Shown: in pieces, positions 4,393 through 60,125 of the stretch
How positions within the stretch are numbered: position 1 is the first letter of the stretch
How the letters are laid out: each line of letters starts with the position of its first letter
Source of the DNA: Ignavibacteriota bacterium
GTDB taxonomy: Bacteria; Bacteroidota; Ignavibacteria; UBA10030; SZUA-254
Reading direction: 5' to 3'
Assembly (NCBI GenBank): GCA_016212665.1
Contig: JACREZ010000037.1
Location: 1 to 64,000, forward strand
DNA: 64,000 bases
Notes under the pieces: model-generated
Told to the model about the DNA's origin: nothing
The model's database searches: none
The model's input: the letters and a program-made list of their open reading frames with translations, nothing else
Translations under genes and position numbers: made by a program

Positions 4393-4395
4393 GTT

Positions 4396-4449
4396 GTACG
4401 TCGAAATTTATTTCGACCCGGTCAATGGACGAAATAAATTTCGTCCTAC
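4396..4449. repeat. GTAG-REP-like two-hairpin element (BIME), copy 1
   Basis: The order is GTAC (4396-4399), a hairpin with 8-bp arms GTCGAAAT/ATTTCGAC (4400-4417), a 10-nt spacer, a hairpin with arms GACGAAAT/ATTTCGTC (4428-4445), then CTAC (4446-4449). This matches the inverted REP pair (BIME) organisation of GTAG-REPs. It overlaps the last codons of wecB and sits directly in front of the GT2 start codon. Confidence 0.75.
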
Positions 4450-5538
4450 AAGAATGTCCACGATTCGCTCTGCCGCTTTCCCATCGCCGTAAGGATTGGC
4501 TTTGGTTGACATTGTTTGATAGGCATTGGAATCAGTCAACAATAGATTTGCTTCTGCAATGATTTTCTCTTTATCCGTTCCAACCAACTTCGCCGTTCCG
4601 ACTTCGATTGCTTCCGGTCGTTCCGTCGTTGTGCGAAGAACAAGCACCGGTTTTCCAAGCGAAGGCGCTTCTTCCTGTATGCCGCCGGAGTCCGTCAGAA
4701 TCAAATAACATTTGTTCATCAACTGAACAAAGGAACGATACTCCAACGGCTCAATCAGATGCACACGGGTAACAGAGGAAAAAATTTCTTTCGCCGCTGA
4801 TTGTACATTCGGATTGGGATGAACGGGATAAATCAGTTCAACATCGGAATGGTATTCAACTATCTGCCGACATGCTGTGAACACTTCACGCATCGGTTTC
4901 CCGAAATTTTCCCGTCTATGAGATGTCAGGAGAATGACCTTCTTCCTATTGAAATCAATCCGATTCAATCGTTCATCATCGAACTGAAACTCCGGCGAGA
5001 CAATCATCTTCAATGCATCAATGACCGTGTTCCCCGTAACGAAAATGGTCTCGGGCTCCACTCCTTCGTTCAACAAATTGTTCTTCGCCCACTCGGTTGG
5101 CGCAAAATGGAAATCCGTCAGTCGTGAAGTAATTTGCCGATTGATTTCTTCGGGCCAGGGATTGAGTTTATTCCATGTCCGCAATCCCGCTTCAACATGT
5201 CCGACGGGAATCTTCAAATAGAAGGCGGCAAGACTCGCGGCAAACGTCGTTGTCGTATCTCCCTGCACCAACAAAACATCAGGCGATTCTTTCTCAAGCA
5301 CATGTTTGATTTCATTCAGTACGGTCGTGGTAATGTAAAACAAATCCTGACCGGGTTGCATGATGTTTAAATCGTAATCCGGTTTGATGTTGAAGATGTC
5401 GAGTTTTTGGTCGAGCAGTTCACGATGCTGTGCCGTCACGATGACAACATGCGGAATATTCCGTTTCCGTAATTCAAGAACGACGGGGGCGAGTTTGATG
5501 GCTTCCGGTCGGGTGCCGAAGACAAGTGCAACCTTCAT
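4408..5538 (-). CDS. wecB: UDP-N-acetylglucosamine 2-epimerase (non-hydrolysing)
   Basis: This is a WecB/MnaA-family enzyme converting UDP-GlcNAc to UDP-ManNAc. It begins MKVALVFGTRPEAIKLAP and carries HVEAGLRTWN, TSHRRENFG, YPVHPNPNV and LTDSGGIQEEAPSLGKPVLVLR, all hallmarks of the family. An in-frame start 48 bases upstream exists (5586) but would overlap the preceding methyltransferase. ATG at 5538 has AAGGA a few bases upstream, overlapping the previous stop, and gives a typical 376 residues. The C-terminal residues GRNLFRPLTGSK are encoded by a REP element, so the natural end of the protein has been overwritten by the repeat. Confidence 0.93.
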   Translation of the reverse strand: MKVALVFGTRPEAIKLAPVVLELRKRNIPHVVIVTAQHRELLDQKLDIFNIKPDYDLNIMQPGQDLFYITTTVLNEIKHVLEKESPDVLLVQGDTTTTFAASLAAFYLKIPVGHVEAGLRTWNKLNPWPEEINRQITSRLTDFHFAPTEWAKNNLLNEGVEPETIFVTGNTVIDALKMIVSPEFQFDDERLNRIDFNRKKVILLTSHRRENFGKPMREVFTACRQIVEYHSDVELIYPVHPNPNVQSAAKEIFSSVTRVHLIEPLEYRSFVQLMNKCYLILTDSGGIQEEAPSLGKPVLVLRTTTERPEAIEVGTAKLVGTDKEKIIAEANLLLTDSNAYQTMSTKANPYGDGKAAERIVDILVGRNLFRPLTGSK

Positions 5539-7617: not shown

Positions 7618-9678
7618 TCAACCGCGGCTCGACAGCCGTTGAAGCAAACTGTACGCTTCAGCATTATTCGGCGCTACCTCAAGCGCTTTCTGAAACGCGG
7701 CTTGCGCCCGACTCACATCGCCGACACTTACCAATGCTTGCCCGTACAATGTCCACGCGTTCGAGAAATCAGGGTCAACCTTCACGAGCATTTCAAGATA
7801 TTGCAATGCTTTCGGCGCGTTCCCGATTTGCAACATGTACGTTCCGAGAATCCGGTTGCTTTCGATTAAGCGCGGGTCGGCGGCAATGGCTTTTTCATAA
7901 TATCTGATTGCTTCCTGTGTATTCTTCAAGGTCAGATACGTTTGAGCAATTGCTTCATACAACATTCCGAAATCTGCGGGTGCGGCGGCTTCCGATTTTT
8001 TGAAATACTCCATAGCATCGTTGGGCCATCGGGAGATTCGGTTCACACCGTCATAATAATCATTCACAAACTGGTTGCGTATCGGATGAGAATCAGTCAA
8101 CGAAGAATCAATCCAAGGTTGTTCCGCGCGTTTATAGACAATGCCGATTCCCTCCGCATCTCCGCCCGGATGAAAATAATATTGATGATACCATTGACGG
8201 AATTCTTTCTTCGTGAACAATGCCCGTTCTGCGAACGCGCTCGGTTTGAATCCCGTCGAGAATAAAATCCAATCCGGCTTGCGCGACAAAACATACGTCG
8301 AGTTATGATGACGTTCTTTCCATCCGCTTTGCAAATCTTCCAATGGTTCAGGATTGTGAGCGATGGTTTCATCCGTCAATCCCAGCATATCAATGAGCGT
8401 CATCTCGGAGTAAAAAGAAACAGCGCCAATTGTTGAAGCCGCAATGACCGCGCCCGGCTTGCTGTTTGCTTTGAACCACTTCCCCTGTTCCGTCATTTTT
8501 TCAACTAAACCGTTTTCCAAATCGCAATAGCGGCGAACATGGTCGTACGGAATCGAGTACGTGTAGTACGCCAGCACCAATGGCGAAGCGTACACAATAT
8601 ATCTCAGCATCGAACGTTTTTCTTCAAACAATTTATAGAGTTCAAACAAACTTTCCTGCACAAGTAAATACATGAGAGGAAGAATCGAAATGAAGAAACG
8701 GAAATTCGGAAGTACATCACCGCCGACGGAGACGATGTACGCGGTGTACGTAAGAATCAAAAACGAAAGATAGAGAATTTCGGAACTACGTCGTTTCCAG
8801 AGGAGAAGTGCAATCGGAAGAACGAGTAACGCTCCCCAGAATAAATCCATTTGAGCGAATTGCCAGAAGTAATCAACTCCTGCGTTGAAATATTCTTTCG
8901 AGAAACCGGCTTTCGCGTAATACGTGTTTGGGAAAAGCCATCCATAATAGAACAATCTCCATCCCATGAACAGCCCGATGGGAATTGCATAGAGCGCGCC
9001 CCACATCACTAATCGTTTGAATTCTTCTTTTCGATTTCGTTCTTTATCAAGGAACACTTCCGCTATAAAGTGCATCATCGTCAGTCCAAAAAGATACATT
9101 CCCTCCGGTCGAGTAAGCGAAAGAAGAACAAAGGCGAACGGAGCGTAAGCAAATTTCTTCTCCTGTTTTCTTTCTTTGATATATAACCAGACTGATAGCA
9201 CGGTAAGAAACATAAACATCCCCGTTTCCATTCCGCTGATTGACCAATATGCTACCGCGCTGTTGCATGCAAGAAACAAAATAGCAATCAACGAGAAACC
9301 GATTGGCCGGTTCTCGGTTGAAATTTCAAGAGAAAGGCGATACATCAGATAGAGTGTCGCCAGCCCAAACAACACACCAATGATTTGCGAAGTTGAAATC
9401 ATATCGAAGTTGAGAATTGCCGGAACGGCGAGGAGAATCGTCCAAAGAAATGTCGTATATCCTTCCACTCTCTCACCGATGTTGAAGACGAGTCCATGTC
9501 CTTCGGCAAAGTTTTTCACGTACCGGAACGTGATGAAAGAATCGTCCTGAACAAAGTTGAAATGTTTTGCGTGATAGTAAAGCAATCCAAGCAACGCAAT
9601 CAAACCGACAAATTCAATTCGTTTAAACCACGTAGCAGATAGAAAACTTTGCTGTTTTTGTTTTTTTTGTTTCGACAT
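7618..9678 (-). CDS. GT-C membrane glycosyltransferase-like protein with TPR tail
   Basis: The protein has 686 residues. The first 400 hold about ten transmembrane helices, with QDDSFITFRYVKNFAEGHGLVFN soon after the first helix; this acidic-pair loop and the following GERVEGYTTFLW are characteristic of arabinosyl/mannosyltransferase-like GT-C proteins that use polyprenyl-phosphate sugars. A periplasmic region follows, then at least three TPR units (about 575-680, with YEKAIAADPRLIESN and FQKALEVAPNNAEAY). It may glycosylate a lipid-linked glycan or protein; the TPRs could recruit a partner. It starts at ATG with the Lys/Gln-rich tail MSKQKKQKQQ. Confidence 0.78.
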   Translation of the reverse strand: MSKQKKQKQQSFLSATWFKRIEFVGLIALLGLLYYHAKHFNFVQDDSFITFRYVKNFAEGHGLVFNIGERVEGYTTFLWTILLAVPAILNFDMISTSQIIGVLFGLATLYLMYRLSLEISTENRPIGFSLIAILFLACNSAVAYWSISGMETGMFMFLTVLSVWLYIKERKQEKKFAYAPFAFVLLSLTRPEGMYLFGLTMMHFIAEVFLDKERNRKEEFKRLVMWGALYAIPIGLFMGWRLFYYGWLFPNTYYAKAGFSKEYFNAGVDYFWQFAQMDLFWGALLVLPIALLLWKRRSSEILYLSFLILTYTAYIVSVGGDVLPNFRFFISILPLMYLLVQESLFELYKLFEEKRSMLRYIVYASPLVLAYYTYSIPYDHVRRYCDLENGLVEKMTEQGKWFKANSKPGAVIAASTIGAVSFYSEMTLIDMLGLTDETIAHNPEPLEDLQSGWKERHHNSTYVLSRKPDWILFSTGFKPSAFAERALFTKKEFRQWYHQYYFHPGGDAEGIGIVYKRAEQPWIDSSLTDSHPIRNQFVNDYYDGVNRISRWPNDAMEYFKKSEAAAPADFGMLYEAIAQTYLTLKNTQEAIRYYEKAIAADPRLIESNRILGTYMLQIGNAPKALQYLEMLVKVDPDFSNAWTLYGQALVSVGDVSRAQAAFQKALEVAPNNAEAYSLLQRLSSRG

Positions 9679-9742
9679 GAACTAACATTTCTTGTGTTAC
9701 AAAACTGCTGAAGCAGTTTCGATTTCATTTTTTTATTTTCAA

Positions 9743-9862
9743 GGGGCTGTCTCAAAAGTTAGGTTCCATCGTAGGCGCAACCTTCATGGTTGCGATTCCG
9801 CATCAAGAACGCAGACATAAAGTCTGCGGCTACTCTTTTCTTAAACTTATGAGACAACCTCG
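9743..9862. repeat. REP/BIME element (copy 2) nested in GGCTGTCTC terminator-like hairpin
   Basis: Outer inverted repeat GGCTGTCTCAAAAG / CTTATGAGACAACC encloses a GTAG-hairpin-hairpin-CTAC element (9771-9833). Hairpin 1 has arms CGCAACC/GGTTGCG; hairpin 2 has arms CGCAGAC/GTCTGCG. The stems share no sequence with copy 1, yet the layout is the same. It lies between the GT-C and GT9 genes, both on the minus strand. Confidence 0.78.
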
Positions 9863-9865
9863 TTC

Positions 9866-10951
9866 TTACTTCAACAACCGTACACACGAATCGTACACTG
9901 CATCAACCGAAAGATACTGCATACAGTTATTCGGGCAGGTCGGCGAGTAGAAACAATCGCAGTCGAAATCCGGTTCGAGGATTTCCCCGCGGCCGTATAA
10001 CTCGAACTCGTGCTTGTTGAAAATATTATTGAACAGCACCATCTTCTTTTGGAATCCGATGGCAAGGTGCATTCCCATCGTTACGGCGGTGACAATCAAA
10101 TCGCATTGTTTGATTTCATCCATGAACTTCGGCATCGGGAAGTGTCCGAAGTACAATGCACCGCTCGCCTTTTGAAGCCGAAGATTTTTTTCATGTTCTT
10201 GCTCGCCGCCAAGTAGTAACGGAACATATCCTCCTTTCTTCAATCGCTTTGCAAGAGCAATCCAATTTTCTTCTGCCCAGAGGCGCGATGTCCAACGACC
10301 ACCGCAACCGGTGTTCAGTCCGACGATTTTTTTCTTCGATGGAAGTTTCCATTCATGGGCGGGAACATCCGGCATGATGTATTCTTCACCGTTGAATTTG
10401 AAGCCACAGATTTCAAAAATTTCTTCCTGATAACATTTCGTGTTCGCTTTACTTACATCATCGAATACGCCGGTGAGATATTTATGCTCTGCCGCTTCGT
10501 TGATTGGAATACACTTTCCGTTTTTGAACGTGTATCCTTTTTTCGTTTTCGCTTTGAGCAATGAGCAAAGAGCGCTTGCTTCTTTGTCTTTGTCTAAATT
10601 ATAAAGAATATCAAACGGTGTTGCTTGAAGAATGGCAAGACTCTGCGCCGTGTAGGTGAGAATAACATCAACTGATTTCGGAACCACATCGGGAGAATAT
10701 GTAAGCCACCAGATTTCTGCATCAGATTCCACCTGCTTGAGTTTATGGAGCAACGGCGTCGTTCGAATGACGTCGCCGATTGCTCCTAACTTTATGATAA
10801 GGATTCGCTTGCCGACTTTATCATAGTACGTGCACGCGTTTCCTTTTCCATCAACACAATGAACGCCATGTTGCTTGTGCGGCTTACACGGAACGTCTGC
10901 GCGAAAATGACGACAATCCCGTTTTAATTCTGAATACAGAATCTTCTTCAA
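9866..10951 (-). CDS. GT9 heptosyltransferase-family protein with Cys-rich ends
   Basis: This 361-residue protein has the GT9 opening RILIIKLGAIGDVIRTTPLL at about residue 49 and NTGCGGRWTSRLW plus a C-terminal VTAVTMGMHLAIG motif, as in ADP-heptose:LPS transferases. Before the fold sits a 48-residue extension with four cysteines (CRHF, PCKP, HCVD, ACTY). The C-terminus has another cluster, CDCFYSPTCPNNC. Such Cys clusters suggest a metal site or disulfides, but I cannot say which. It probably adds a sugar to the LPS core or a related glycan. Confidence 0.8.
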   Translation of the reverse strand: MKKILYSELKRDCRHFRADVPCKPHKQHGVHCVDGKGNACTYYDKVGKRILIIKLGAIGDVIRTTPLLHKLKQVESDAEIWWLTYSPDVVPKSVDVILTYTAQSLAILQATPFDILYNLDKDKEASALCSLLKAKTKKGYTFKNGKCIPINEAAEHKYLTGVFDDVSKANTKCYQEEIFEICGFKFNGEEYIMPDVPAHEWKLPSKKKIVGLNTGCGGRWTSRLWAEENWIALAKRLKKGGYVPLLLGGEQEHEKNLRLQKASGALYFGHFPMPKFMDEIKQCDLIVTAVTMGMHLAIGFQKKMVLFNNIFNKHEFELYGRGEILEPDFDCDCFYSPTCPNNCMQYLSVDAVYDSCVRLLK

Positions 10952-24171: not shown

Positions 24172-24224
24172 TATTGGTCGAATTTCATTTCGACCTATTG
24201 GAGACGAATTGAAATTCGTCTTAC
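24172..24224. repeat. REP/BIME-like two-hairpin element, copy 3
   Basis: Hairpin 1 (24176-24195) has arms GGTCGAA/TTTCGACC; hairpin 2 (24203-24220) has arms GACGAATT/AAATTCGTC. The flanking tetranucleotides are degenerate (ATTG-like and TTAC). It is related in sequence to copy 1 and sits between the dipeptidase and the H1-like gene. Confidence 0.62.
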
Positions 24225-42051: not shown

Positions 42052-42090
42052 GGGCTGTCTCAATAACCAAAAGAGACAGCCCATTTTTTT
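42052..42090 (+). terminator. Intrinsic terminator, GGGCTGTCTC family
   Basis: A perfect 10-bp stem GGGCTGTCTC/GAGACAGCCC (42052-42061, 42073-42082) with an 11-nt loop is followed by a T7 tract. Its arms match the outer arms of the elements at 9743 and 43402, which carry a REP pair inside the loop. Confidence 0.9.
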
Positions 42091-42110: not shown

Positions 42111-43373
42111 TTACTTCACCAACACTACCTTCCTCGTCTCAGTAAAATTATTCACCCGCAACGTAGCAAAGTACATTCCGCCGGCAAGCGATTGTGCATC
42201 CCATGTTACATGATAATTTCCGGGATGCATCGTTTCATTCACTAACTCAGCAACTTCCCTTCCGAAAACATCATACACCTTCAACATCACCAATCCGAAA
42301 TTGGCAATCCGAAATTCGAAATTCGTGCTCGGGTTGAAGGGATTCGGATAATTCTGTTTGAGCGCAAACGTCGTCGGAATTCCGGGCATTTCTTTCACAT
42401 CATTGAAATCAACCATGAAGAAAAAGAACGTATCGGAAGCGGCAACCGTTTCAATGCCATCCGATGCAAACACGCTCCATCCGTACGCCATCCATTGTTG
42501 GAATTGCGTCATTGCAACGGTCTTGAATGTGTCGGTCGTTGAAAACCGCAACGTATCAAAGTTCAAATTCACAATGACAACTTCGTAACCGACAATATCG
42601 CCTACATCAGAATCGTGAGCGCGACTCCAGGAGAAATGAACATTATCAGACGGATGATATTCAAGCGTATCAAACATCGTTGGTGTCAGAAGGTGGAATG
42701 CAGACGGTGCATGGTTCGTCGCAAGTACATACAGCGTGTATGTCATCTGATTCATACCGCGATAATAGCCGTCGTTTACTTCAACAGTAATTTGGTGCGA
42801 ACCGACATCTGACGCTCCGGGAGTTCCATGAATGAAACCGGTTTCTTCATCAATAGAAAGCCACGATGGCGCACCGACAAGAGAAAATGTTACTGCATCG
42901 TTGTCCAAATCGTGTGCTACGATTTGACGTTGATACGGGAAATCTTCCAATGTCGTATCGCTGACAAATTCAGTGAAATACGGTCGGCGATTGATAGTGA
43001 GATTTACTTCTCGTGGTTCAGGCGGTTGTGGCGAAGGCGTTCCGATAAAGATTGCCGCTTCACCGCTCGTTCTTGCAATCAGCGTATCACAGTTGTACAA
43101 AATTCTGAATTGCACAACATCGCTGTCATTGAATCCATCCCAAGAGAATGCACTCACACCATACATTTGCGTTTCCGGACTGAACGATGCCGTACGACTC
43201 GAATCGCCGTCGTGAATAAGCAATTGAATGACCGGCGGTTCAGTTGAGCAGGGATTGGGAAATATTTCAGGGTGAATCGTCACGCTCCCCTGAAATATAC
43301 ATTGCGATGTTTGCGGAAAGACCTGAGTCATTGCAACCATCAACAAGAAAATAATTCCTAAGTATCTTTTCAT
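42111..43373 (-). CDS. T9SS-exported cadherin-like repeat protein
   Basis: The protein is 420 residues from ATG 43373 (AAAGGATG upstream); an upstream in-frame start at 43430 would lie inside a repeat element. A signal peptide (to TQVFPQ) is followed by a dystroglycan-type cadherin-like domain at about 130-225 (LDNDAVTFSLVGAPSWLSID, GTPGASDVGSHQITVEV) and a fibronectin-like domain (HAPSAFHLLTP). The T9SS sorting domain ([15 protein letters not shown]) ends it. The sorting domain contains FEFRIANFGL, encoded by short repeats. Confidence 0.82.
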   Translation of the reverse strand: MKRYLGIIFLLMVAMTQVFPQTSQCIFQGSVTIHPEIFPNPCSTEPPVIQLLIHDGDSSRTASFSPETQMYGVSAFSWDGFNDSDVVQFRILYNCDTLIARTSGEAAIFIGTPSPQPPEPREVNLTINRRPYFTEFVSDTTLEDFPYQRQIVAHDLDNDAVTFSLVGAPSWLSIDEETGFIHGTPGASDVGSHQITVEVNDGYYRGMNQMTYTLYVLATNHAPSAFHLLTPTMFDTLEYHPSDNVHFSWSRAHDSDVGDIVGYEVVIVNLNFDTLRFSTTDTFKTVAMTQFQQWMAYGWSVFASDGIETVAASDTFFFFMVDFNDVKEMPGIPTTFALKQNYPNPFNPSTNFEFRIANFGLVMLKVYDVFGREVAELVNETMHPGNYHVTWDAQSLAGGMYFATLRVNNFTETRKVVLVK

Positions 43374-43401
43374 AACTACATCCTTTTCTTGATAACAGTA
43401 A

Positions 43402-43509
43402 GGTTGTCTCAAACATATTGTAGTGTCCATTTCGCAAATGGACTGTGTTTTTCCAAACGTTCTCGTCCGATTACGAATCGGACTCTACAATTCGAGTTTC
43501 GAGACAACC
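43402..43509. repeat. REP/BIME element (copy 4) nested in GGTTGTCTC hairpin
   Basis: Outer arms GGTTGTCTC/GAGACAACC enclose GTAG (43420-43423), hairpin 1 with arms GTCCATTT/AAATGGAC (43425-43443), a 21-nt spacer, hairpin 2 with arms GTCCGATT/AATCGGAC (43465-43483) and CTAC (43485-43488). It has the same layout as copies 1 and 2 with different stem sequences. It lies between two minus-strand T9SS genes. Confidence 0.85.
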
Positions 43510-43522
43510 TCACTTCATCACA

Positions 43523-45658
43523 TTACTTCATCAATATCATTTTGTACGACTGAACGAAATTATCTTTTCCGTCATTCGCTGTCAGACGGTACGTGTAGAT
43601 TCCGCTGGAGACCGACTGACCGGAATTGTTCGTTCCGTCCCATGTCACTTCAAAGAATCCAACATCCTGTTGGGCATCTACTAACGTGCGAACTTCCTGA
43701 CCGAGCATATCATAAATTTTCAATGATACTGACGCAGCATTGGGAAGTTCATACTTGATGGATGTTACCGGGTTGAACGGATTCGGATAGTTTTGATGCA
43801 ACACGAATTGTTGTGGAACGGTGTTCGCATCTCCGGCAGCGAGAACTTCGAGATTACCGCTCAACTCCGGCGTATCGCCGAACTTCGTCCACTTCACGCG
43901 CTGAGAAACAAGTTGGTTTCCGATATAGACTTTCACCAACTCATCTTTCGATGCGCCTTCGTCCTGTGCGGTCGAAGGATTATCGGCAAGAATCGGCAAT
44001 GCGAAAATCCCGTCTGCAAGGAACTTCGCGGTTCCGCATACAACACCATCATTGTCAAGCGCTTTCACTTCGGTTCCCTTCGGAATTATTGTTCCATTCA
44101 TCTGAACATTCTTCCCATAGGCGAACACTGCTTCAGGCATTCCGGAAGATGATAAAGTTTTCCGTTGCGTTGCGCTGGAACCTTCCTTCCGCTTCGCCGA
44201 GAAACCGATACTATCCTCGAAATCAGGATAGACGAAATAACTCGGATAGAAGACGTTCAGGAAATATCCTTTTCCTTCGTTCATGTATTCAAATCCACCG
44301 TTGGGATAGAAGTCAAAGTATTGATAGCCGTCGTCATTCACCCAATCGAGAGCAACATTTAGGTTTTCACCGAGCGATGAGAGTATCGACGAAACATGAT
44401 GTGTTTGGTTTGGTAAATACGATACAAAATTATATCCCGGAAATAACGTAAGAGGAATCGAGGCACAGACCGGTTGACCCCAAACCTGCATACCTTCTAC
44501 ATCATCCCACATGTTAACAAAATATCCTTTTCGGAAATCTGTCGTCTGTAACGGATTATACTCGCCCAACGCCGGAATGTAGAAATCAAATCTCGGCTGG
44601 GTTGAACCATCGTTCACATAATCGAGTATGATTTTGACATTACGAGAATAGAGCGCGTTACCGAACACACCCATGATACTCTGGTCGTGCGGGAGAACAT
44701 TCCAAGAAACGGCATTGTATCCTTCACGCAGAGAAATATTCACCGACTTGAAATCAACACCGATGATGTCATGCCATGTGTAACCGCCTTCGGGAGGGAA
44801 CCCGGGCTGGAAGATTGTTGCACCACAAATTCGCTCGAACTGTAAATCGCAACCGTAACTTATGCCGAAGAGAATTGTGTCGCCTGCTTCAATTCCTGCC
44901 TGACCTTCCTGAATGGAAAGTGCGTAATTCATTCCTTCGAGAACGCTATCGGGCGAAAGTTGTATAAGCGATGCTTTGATGAGTTGATAACTTGTTGTCA
45001 GCGCGACGACGACTGCATGCCTGGGTGCTACCATGTTGTGCATCGTTGCCAAGCCTGCAAAGATTTGTTGACCGGCGCCCGTCGTCTCAAGTTCACCCTG
45101 ACCGGCAAGGAATAATGTATCGGTAGTTTCCCCTGCCATAACGAACAATGATGCAAGATAATCTCCCGGATATGCCGGCGAGAAATCAATATCTACAGTA
45201 ATAGATTCACCGGGATTAATAACCGAACTTCCGTTATTTACAACATTGAATGCACCATCTGTCGTTACAAAAGTGACTTCTACAGCAGATGCTGATTCAT
45301 TGGTGAGTGTTAACGGCAGTGCGAGCGATTCACTCGGTCGGACTGTCGGGAACGTGATACATTTTCTATCGAAGGTAATTCCACCGATAGTTGAATGATT
45401 TCCGAAATCAATATACCAACGGTTACTGATACTGTCTGTCAACTCGATTTCATAACACCCGTCATCTTCATCCGGGAAGGTTTGCACCCAACCTTCTTGC
45501 GGCATTTCACACACCGTGTATTGACCTAAGGGAAGATTCGTAAAGTGGTACTCACCGTTTTCATCCGTTAACGCTCGTGCCGTCACCGGACCTTCAATAA
45601 CAATTGCCCATTCAGGAATTCCCGGTTCATTTTCATCTCTACTTCCGTTTCCGTTCAT
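43523..45658 (-). CDS. C-terminal part of split SdrD-like T9SS protein
   Basis: The 711-residue frame lacks any signal peptide and begins in the middle of an SdrD-B domain (MNGNGSRDENEPGIPEWAIVIEG; the codons before it in the same frame read ISGTKFND). Further on are anchor-like beta domains, two WN-type domains and a T9SS sorting domain ([20 protein letters not shown]) at the end. Together with the 45655-48618 gene it would form one protein of about 1700 residues, joined by a -1 frameshift near 45680. I annotate both pieces as real coding sequence of one gene. Confidence 0.72.
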   Translation of the reverse strand: MNGNGSRDENEPGIPEWAIVIEGPVTARALTDENGEYHFTNLPLGQYTVCEMPQEGWVQTFPDEDDGCYEIELTDSISNRWYIDFGNHSTIGGITFDRKCITFPTVRPSESLALPLTLTNESASAVEVTFVTTDGAFNVVNNGSSVINPGESITVDIDFSPAYPGDYLASLFVMAGETTDTLFLAGQGELETTGAGQQIFAGLATMHNMVAPRHAVVVALTTSYQLIKASLIQLSPDSVLEGMNYALSIQEGQAGIEAGDTILFGISYGCDLQFERICGATIFQPGFPPEGGYTWHDIIGVDFKSVNISLREGYNAVSWNVLPHDQSIMGVFGNALYSRNVKIILDYVNDGSTQPRFDFYIPALGEYNPLQTTDFRKGYFVNMWDDVEGMQVWGQPVCASIPLTLFPGYNFVSYLPNQTHHVSSILSSLGENLNVALDWVNDDGYQYFDFYPNGGFEYMNEGKGYFLNVFYPSYFVYPDFEDSIGFSAKRKEGSSATQRKTLSSSGMPEAVFAYGKNVQMNGTIIPKGTEVKALDNDGVVCGTAKFLADGIFALPILADNPSTAQDEGASKDELVKVYIGNQLVSQRVKWTKFGDTPELSGNLEVLAAGDANTVPQQFVLHQNYPNPFNPVTSIKYELPNAASVSLKIYDMLGQEVRTLVDAQQDVGFFEVTWDGTNNSGQSVSSGIYTYRLTANDGKDNFVQSYKMILMK

Positions 45659-53210: not shown

Positions 53211-53645
53211 ATGAAAGTAGAACAACCTCTATGCAATCGAGATCGGGAACCCATGAAGCGAATACTGGAATCCGTAGAGCAGTTGAGGAAGTCCGCAACG
53301 CAATTACGGGAGTCCGTGACGCAAGTACGGGAGTCCGTGGCATGGCTACGGGAGTCCGTGGCGCGGCTACGGGAGTCCGTGGCACAGGTACGGGAGTCCG
53401 TGGCGCGGCTACGGGAGTCCGTGGCGCGGCTACGGGAGTCCGTGGCACAAACACGGGAGTCCGTGGCACAAGCACGGGAGTCCGTGGCACAAGTACGGGA
53501 GTCCGTGGCACAAGTACGGGAGTCCGTGGCACGGCTACGGGAGTCCGTGGCGCGGCTACGGGAGTCCGTGGCTCGGCTACGGGAGTCCGCGGCGGAGTTA
53601 CGGACGTCCGGAATTCAATTACGGACGGAAAACAATCGAAATTAG
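53211..53645 (+). CDS. Heptad-repeat coiled-coil protein encoded by a 21-bp array
   Basis: The 144-residue frame from ATG 53211 reads LRESVAR / LRESVAQ / VRESVAQ heptads about 14 times, flanked by diverged but in-register heptads (RILESVEQLRKSATQ at the start, RESAAELRTSGIQ at the end). Val falls at position a and Leu at d, the pattern of a long parallel coiled coil of about 100 residues. Two other plus frames and one minus frame are also open because 21 is a multiple of three. I favour this frame because unit-to-unit changes are mostly synonymous here (GCG/GCA/GCT; CAA/CAG) or R/Q swaps. No strong Shine-Dalgarno is visible, so expression is uncertain. Confidence 0.5.
   Translation: MKVEQPLCNRDREPMKRILESVEQLRKSATQLRESVTQVRESVAWLRESVARLRESVAQVRESVARLRESVARLRESVAQTRESVAQARESVAQVRESVAQVRESVARLRESVARLRESVARLRESAAELRTSGIQLRTENNRN
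53268..53628. repeat. 21-bp tandem array, about 17 copies
   Basis: Units of the form CGGGAGTCCGTGGCGCGGCTA repeat with substitutions confined mainly to the last nine bases. The ends decay gradually. There are no spacers between units, so it is not a CRISPR array. Confidence 0.92.
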
Positions 53646-60072: not shown

Positions 60073-60125
60073 GTAGGTCGAAATTACTTTCGACTATTTC
60101 CTACCAGAATCGAAATAATATTTCC
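60073..60125. repeat. REP/BIME-like element, copy 5 (degenerate)
   Basis: GTAG (60073-60076) is followed by hairpin arms GTCGAAA/TTTCGAC (60077-60094). A second, weaker dyad (TCGAAAT...ATTTCCGA) follows, with CTAC inside. It is related to copy 1 by sequence but eroded in the second half. Confidence 0.5.

Follow-up and report, generated by a model that had tools for sequence, protein, structure and literature searches.

The repeat unit at positions 43400-43511 of the window, the 64,000-nucleotide stretch of Ignavibacteriota DNA analysed here, is probably a MITE-like element: its ends would be terminal inverted repeats (TIRs) of an insertion sequence, its interior would consist wholly of a captured GTAG-REP doublet, and its cores would be exchangeable. 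The window (G000:C37:1-64000) belongs to a genome of 3.91 Mb in 45 contigs, which is 99.65% complete and is referred to below as the source genome.

Between 43402 and 43509, the limits given in an earlier note on this DNA and defined by the outer inverted repeat, the unit contains, in this order, GGTTGTCTC, a linker, GTAG, a hairpin, a spacer, a second hairpin, CTAC, a linker and GAGACAACC. The left TIR (43400-43415, plus strand) is a diverged copy of GGGGYTGTCTCAAAAG, and the right TIR occupies 43496-43511 on the minus strand. Both REPs are of a type that we call family I. REP 1 (43420-43443, plus strand) consists of GTAG followed by hairpin 1, GTCCATTT-CGC-AAATGGAC, and REP 2 (43465-43488, minus strand), arranged head-to-head with it, of GTAGA followed by hairpin 2, GTCCGATT-CGT-AATCGGAC. 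The hairpin pair 43420-43488 is a true GTAG-REP doublet. The site is an intergenic gap of 149 nt between two minus-strand genes, with the end of the first at 43523 and the start of the other near 43373. When 43400-43511 is folded as a single strand, the outer arms pair, GTAG pairs with CTAC and both hairpins are formed; the fold of the whole element has a z of -7.15 and was not equalled by any of 200 shuffles.

A second element of the same design is located at 9743-9861. Its left TIR (9743-9758, plus strand) is an exact GGGGCTGTCTCAAAAG and its right TIR lies at 9846-9861 on the minus strand, the outer pair GGCTGTCTC/GAGACAACC having one mismatch. The complete doublet inside belongs to family II and comprises GTAGGCGCAACC-TTCAT-GGTTGCG (REP 1, 9771-9794, plus strand) and GTAGCCGCAGAC-TTTAT-GTCTGCG (REP 2, 9810-9833, minus strand). 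The fold of this element gave a z of -6.30. Thus the doublets of both elements are enclosed by inverted repeats of about 16 bp related to GGGGYTGTCTCAAAAG.

The earlier note had listed five sites in the window with the order GTAG, hairpin, hairpin, CTAC. This order is complete at 9771 and 43420, but the sites at 4396 and 60073 have one tag each and that at 24172 has none. The site at 4394-4450 is a degenerate family III doublet with GTAC on the left and a CTAC tag on the right only; another degenerate doublet of this family, at 24172-24222, has two hairpins, neither of them with a GTAG tag; and at 60073-60094 (plus strand) there is a family III half-element with GTAG and one hairpin, the partner of which has decayed. 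No outer repeat was seen around these three sites, and in the window such a repeat surrounds families I and II only. A single family comprising all five sites was rejected: as the note had itself observed, the stems are unrelated between some copies, and three families or more can be distinguished among them (I, GTAGNGTCC; II, GTAGNCGCANNC; III, GTAGGTCGA-like). As a separate observation, positions 1-377 and 53305-53593 of the window contain two 21-bp (63-bp) tandem repeat arrays with 18 and 14 copies.

The REPs themselves exceed chance in the source genome. In a sample of 464 kb (the window and 20 stretches of 20 kb), no plain tetramer was more strongly enriched next to perfect hairpins than GTAG (28 per 1484 GTAG, compared with a median of 3.2 per 1000). 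With strict patterns, 11 half-elements of family I and 36 of family II were found, compared with 1 and 0, respectively, in the reversed-pattern controls. The hundreds of intergenic copies envisaged at the outset are not there; each family amounts to tens. Family I was present in 28 of the 60 genomes searched, the source genome included. The compensatory nature of its stems was confirmed in an alignment of 24 distinct half-elements of fixed length, in which the outer four pairs are fixed by the selecting pattern: 97.4% of the cells were paired, all four variable pairs were altered on both sides, and 31 cells were changed on both sides compared with 9.7 after shuffling, a number reached in none of 500 shuffles. 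A search against Rfam returned just a tRNA.

A RAYT transposase was a further prediction of the earlier note. Seven matches to Y1_Tnp were obtained in the source genome, three of them of RAYT type according to NCBIfam NF047646, with L007 (102.6 bits) above the cut-off of 80 and L006 (79.3) and L005 (75.9) just below it; the remaining four look like IS200-type genes, judging from their sequences. RAYT-type genes are therefore present, but none of the seven is flanked by REPs of family I or II and none is of the family II RAYT type. The RAYT encoded on contig C25 was considered as the cognate of family I, since the protein is 55% identical to a family I RAYT and falls into the same clade, and is considered improbable in this role because its flanking REPs are of a different kind (GTAGTAGC, with the stem GTAGTAGCGGGTC/GCCGTTC).

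Cognates were found in relatives. RAYT genes are flanked there by family I REPs (L079, L081, L085, L086), by family II REPs (L064, L070, L098) and by REPs of a further kind, family VI (L072, L088), the REPs around them being identical or nearly so. The NF047646 cut-off was passed by L079 (88.0 bits), L098 (82.4 bits), L070 (86.3 bits) and L072. Among 18 loci returned from GTDB contigs, the nine close relatives of the family I-type RAYT were all flanked by GTAG hairpins (GTAGAGTCC, GTAGCATCC or GTAGTAGC kinds), and the nine closest named matches to this clade came from Ignavibacteriae, Ignavibacteria and Bacteroidetes MAGs. Since cognate RAYTs are flanked by families I and II in relatives and none such exists in the source genome, both families are in kind RAYT-linked GTAG-REPs, but orphans here. 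Together with the stem covariation and the occurrence of family I in 28 genomes, the RAYT flanks mean that the assignment to a GTAG-REP/BIME family, with tagged doublets set head-to-head, holds in kind; the two complete sites are nevertheless not free doublets but the cores of a miniature element bounded by TIRs.

Several observations on RAYT genes and REPs stand apart from this question. In three genomes of the genus, RAYT genes (L006:1444-2079 on G000:C25, L084 and L091) carry a doublet of their own REP kind (GTAGTAGC...) in frame within the coding sequence. This was dismissed as a novelty, as the passages of PMC6006769 on RAYT subclass 2.4 in Bacteroidetes describe REP insertions inside the gene as predominant. 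Another GTAG doublet (L027:13282-13332, G000:C34) has been inserted, with the reading frame kept, into the sorting domain (YPNPFNP type) at the C-terminus of a protein predicted to be secreted. Beside a Y1 transposase gene, L002:1969-2776 (G000:C6) contains a block of about 344 bp in repeated copies, every copy with the hairpins CCCCACGATTTATCGTGGGG and ACCCCATGCTGAAGCATGGGGT. The best candidate cognate of the family III of the window is a RAYT flanked by GTAGAGCGAAATTCATTTCGCT-like REPs (L090:838-1681, G006:C43).

The outer arms proved to be repeats in their own right. The arm GGNTGTCTCRAA had 30 matches in the source genome, compared with 5 in the control. One of these is a chance match. Five others are no more than about 140 bases away from the end of a contig and run on there into a single repeated element, the two ends of which differ. 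The other 24 represent 20 places, and each of the 20 encloses a REP doublet, some of them decayed. Assigned by eye, as were those of the sister genome G001, the cores belong to family II (8 places), family VI (6), the CGTC/GTCAT kind (4) and family I (2); family VI is a third GTAG kind (GTAGGNCAGNCATTC), and the CGTC-kind palindromes are GTCATTCC. In G001 (83% complete, 5% contamination) the longer arm GGGNTGTCTCAAAAG gave 40 matches in 34 places, all of which were read. A tagged REP core is present at 32 of them (15 of family II, 7 of family I, 8 of GTCAT kind and 2 of CGTCACCCTGAG) and absent at two (C95, C698). This longer arm occurs in 8 of 60 genomes. When a tag and a perfect hairpin of 6 bp or more were strictly required, 41 of the 52 collected units passed and 11 failed, compared with 8 passes among 1040 shuffled interiors.

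Arms and doublet behave as one unit. A BLAST search with window positions 9400-10300 retrieved the full TIR-doublet-TIR unit of 119 bp in G001 and G002 (about 80% identical), and the 63-bp doublet or part of it alone in G005, G006 and G012; the repeat in this genus is the 119-bp unit, and in other genera it is the bare doublet. In the source genome, the 36 family II places collapse to 33 distinct half-elements, 23 of which are accompanied, 10-12 nt outside the tag, by a TIR with no more than 4 mismatches in 16 positions; three more show 5-6 mismatches at the same spacing. As so many of them lie within IS-type ends, REP counts in a genome do not measure RAYT activity. Furthermore, units with the same type of core have conserved linkers between their arms and the doublet, and from one type to another these linkers are mostly different. 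These linkers, the fixed distance of the arms and the 119-bp units in two further genomes show that the multiplying entity in this genus is the TIR-bounded unit, at least for family II.

The element behind the arms is IS-like. Its five copies all break at contig ends, where the same 15-16-mer caps them, and the TIRs of the window match those ends; three copies of the left end show no difference over 139-147 bases. No transposase gene was recovered from them beyond a putative N-terminal fragment of 31 residues. This fragment matched no NCBIfam or Pfam family and had no counterpart in plasmids. The IS end gave no match in viral contigs, and BLAST against 98 genomes from the order found it in two, with one match in the source genome itself and one weak match. 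A search with NF033551 led to a different IS with other ends. The N-terminal fragment (...MPTAIFKPYSPNQLQLL) may resemble IS1182 enzymes. A lead to an IS1182/IS1272-like family comes from this motif together with the repeat length of 16 bp and the dyad symmetry of the targets.

The dyad character of the targets emerged from the flanks of 52 units, to which 59 collected units had been reduced by the quality of their ends. We counted 86 palindromic matches over 4 nt where 63.1 +/- 6.5 were expected, a value reached in none of 2000 permutations. There was no excess of direct repeats in these flanks and hence no sign of target duplication. IS1272, of the IS1182 family, replaces target stem-loops without duplicating the target, and its terminal repeats may be 16 bp, as the relevant part of PMC5678879 describes. 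At the site in G002 orthologous to 43402-43509 an unrelated palindrome of about 41 bp stands in place of the unit, and a clean insertion was not seen; such a palindrome would fit the unoccupied target that we would expect under stem-loop replacement of IS1272 type. The orthologous site in G001 has the same outer arms with a GTCAT-type core. At this one site, the sequences would fit both a swapped core and a repeated insertion at the same target. A comparison around 9743 met a contig break in G002 and elsewhere diverged flanks only.

That different cores occupy the same arms at this orthologous site, and that the same arms surround several unrelated cores, could also mean that the outer palindrome is the target, RAYTs having placed REP doublets in the loops of palindromes, such as terminators, that were already there. 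The same may be said of the short palindrome at 42053-42081 of the window (GGCTGTCTC-11 nt-GAGACAGCC), a terminator-like structure with the same outer arms and no REP between two convergent ORF ends: it is possibly an empty or collapsed form of the TIR element, and it could be an empty target instead of a collapsed element. In addition, this is the explanation given for the REP dimers of A. variabilis and H. neapolitanus, and PMC3733652 describes for two species REP dimers within long palindromes, with no palindromes that are empty. We nevertheless regard this explanation as unlikely, because one arm sequence recurs at 54 places (20 in the source genome and 34 in G001) in unrelated surroundings and also ends a multi-copy element at contig breaks. 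The conserved linkers, the repetition of the full-length 119-bp unit in three species and the absence of cognate RAYTs from the source genome speak against it as well.

Still harder to sustain is the idea that both layers belong to Y1 enzymes, the outer arms being the recognition ends of another tyrosine transposase of the TIRtron/TIRYT kind defined in PMC3733652. The source genome does have a RAYT relative flanked by TIRs, since long inverted repeats, GTGCGACTCACTT...AAGTGAGTCGCAC, enclose the RAYT-like gene at L005:1300-2200 (G000:C23), which is TIRtron-like. However, none of the seven Y1 places coincides with any of the 30 arm-match places, the TIR is unlike the published GGGGWSAS motif, and dyad targets without duplication suit an element of IS1272 type better, leaving this a very improbable account. 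The reading of the earlier note, a GTAG-REP/BIME family of the usual free-standing kind, would make the outer hairpin an accident. It agrees with the family I copies that lack the outer repeat on C19, C34, C43 and C45 of the source genome and still holds for 4396, 24172 and 60073, but for the window elements at 9743 and 43400 it is contradicted by the same outer repeat around unrelated doublets (at 20 of 20 and 32 of 34 places in the two genomes) and is very improbable there.

Under the preferred interpretation as a MITE-like element with a REP core, doublets of this class most likely first spread by means of cognate RAYTs; the association is observed, and mobilisation is what we infer from it. 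Several unrelated doublets (GTAG families I, II and VI and the CGTC/GTCAT palindromes) would then have come between the same two TIRs in this genus. Thereafter, the complete unit of TIR, doublet and TIR would have been duplicated, presumably through the action of the IS transposase in trans. It would have been inserted at palindromes, many of them resembling terminators, with no duplication of the target; here the dyad is observed, and the mode of insertion would correspond to IS1272 by analogy. The cores would be exchangeable while the outer palindrome stays, as the one orthologous site suggests. A self-folding doublet would join both TIRs in one compact hairpin, which may explain why REP doublets serve as cargo. 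Tentatively, and with somewhat less than an even chance of being right, we propose a nested system of two transposases, in which an IS1272-like DDE transposase that targets structures moves the MITEs, and HUH-type REP doublets are the cargo that the MITEs carry and can exchange. REPs, those of CGTC kind included, might in this way persist and spread without a cognate RAYT, and the doublet might be selected since its folding closes the TIR hairpin that is recognised.

Bacterial MITEs are short units bounded by TIRs, without coding capacity and with the same ends as a larger element. The units described here share the short, non-coding, TIR-bounded form and the ends of a larger element, but what lies inside them is itself a mobile repeat, of an unrelated class and exchangeable. 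With the GTAG-REPs, REPINs and BIMEs of RAYTs (TnpA_REP) they share the GTAG tag, the short perfect stem, head-to-head doublets, compensatory stems and, in relatives, cognate RAYTs flanked by REPs. In contrast to GTAG-REPs mobilised by RAYTs, families I and II lack a cognate RAYT in the source genome, number tens of copies and, in the case of family II, lie mostly within IS-type TIRs. As a REP family they are ordinary, and the novelty is their nesting inside IS-type ends. A search of the open-access literature, which provides a weak indication, yielded no paper in which REP doublets are described as lying between the ends of an IS. The nesting suggests how REPs can spread in genomes without a RAYT of their own, namely as cargo between the ends of another jumping element.

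The resemblance to IS1272, as far as its description in PMC5678879 extends, comprises terminal repeats of about 16 bp, palindromic targets and the absence of target duplication. Unlike IS1272, the unit here is non-autonomous, about 102-196 bp long and has a REP doublet inside. The closest parallel on the REP side is provided by A. variabilis GTAG-15 and H. neapolitanus CGTC-1, for which the pertinent sections of PMC3733652 describe REP dimers within long palindromes. An outer palindrome around the dimer and, according to the same sections, almost no empty palindromes are common to those species and to our genomes, but here four or more unrelated REP kinds occupy one outer repeat, which is itself the end of a multi-copy IS-like element. 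These sections leave open how CGTC repeats spread, which have no dedicated transposase, and why REP dimers lie inside long palindromes in some species. As the palindrome here is the end pair of an IS-like element carrying GTAG and CGTC doublets alike, the notion of REPs as MITE cargo becomes directly testable.
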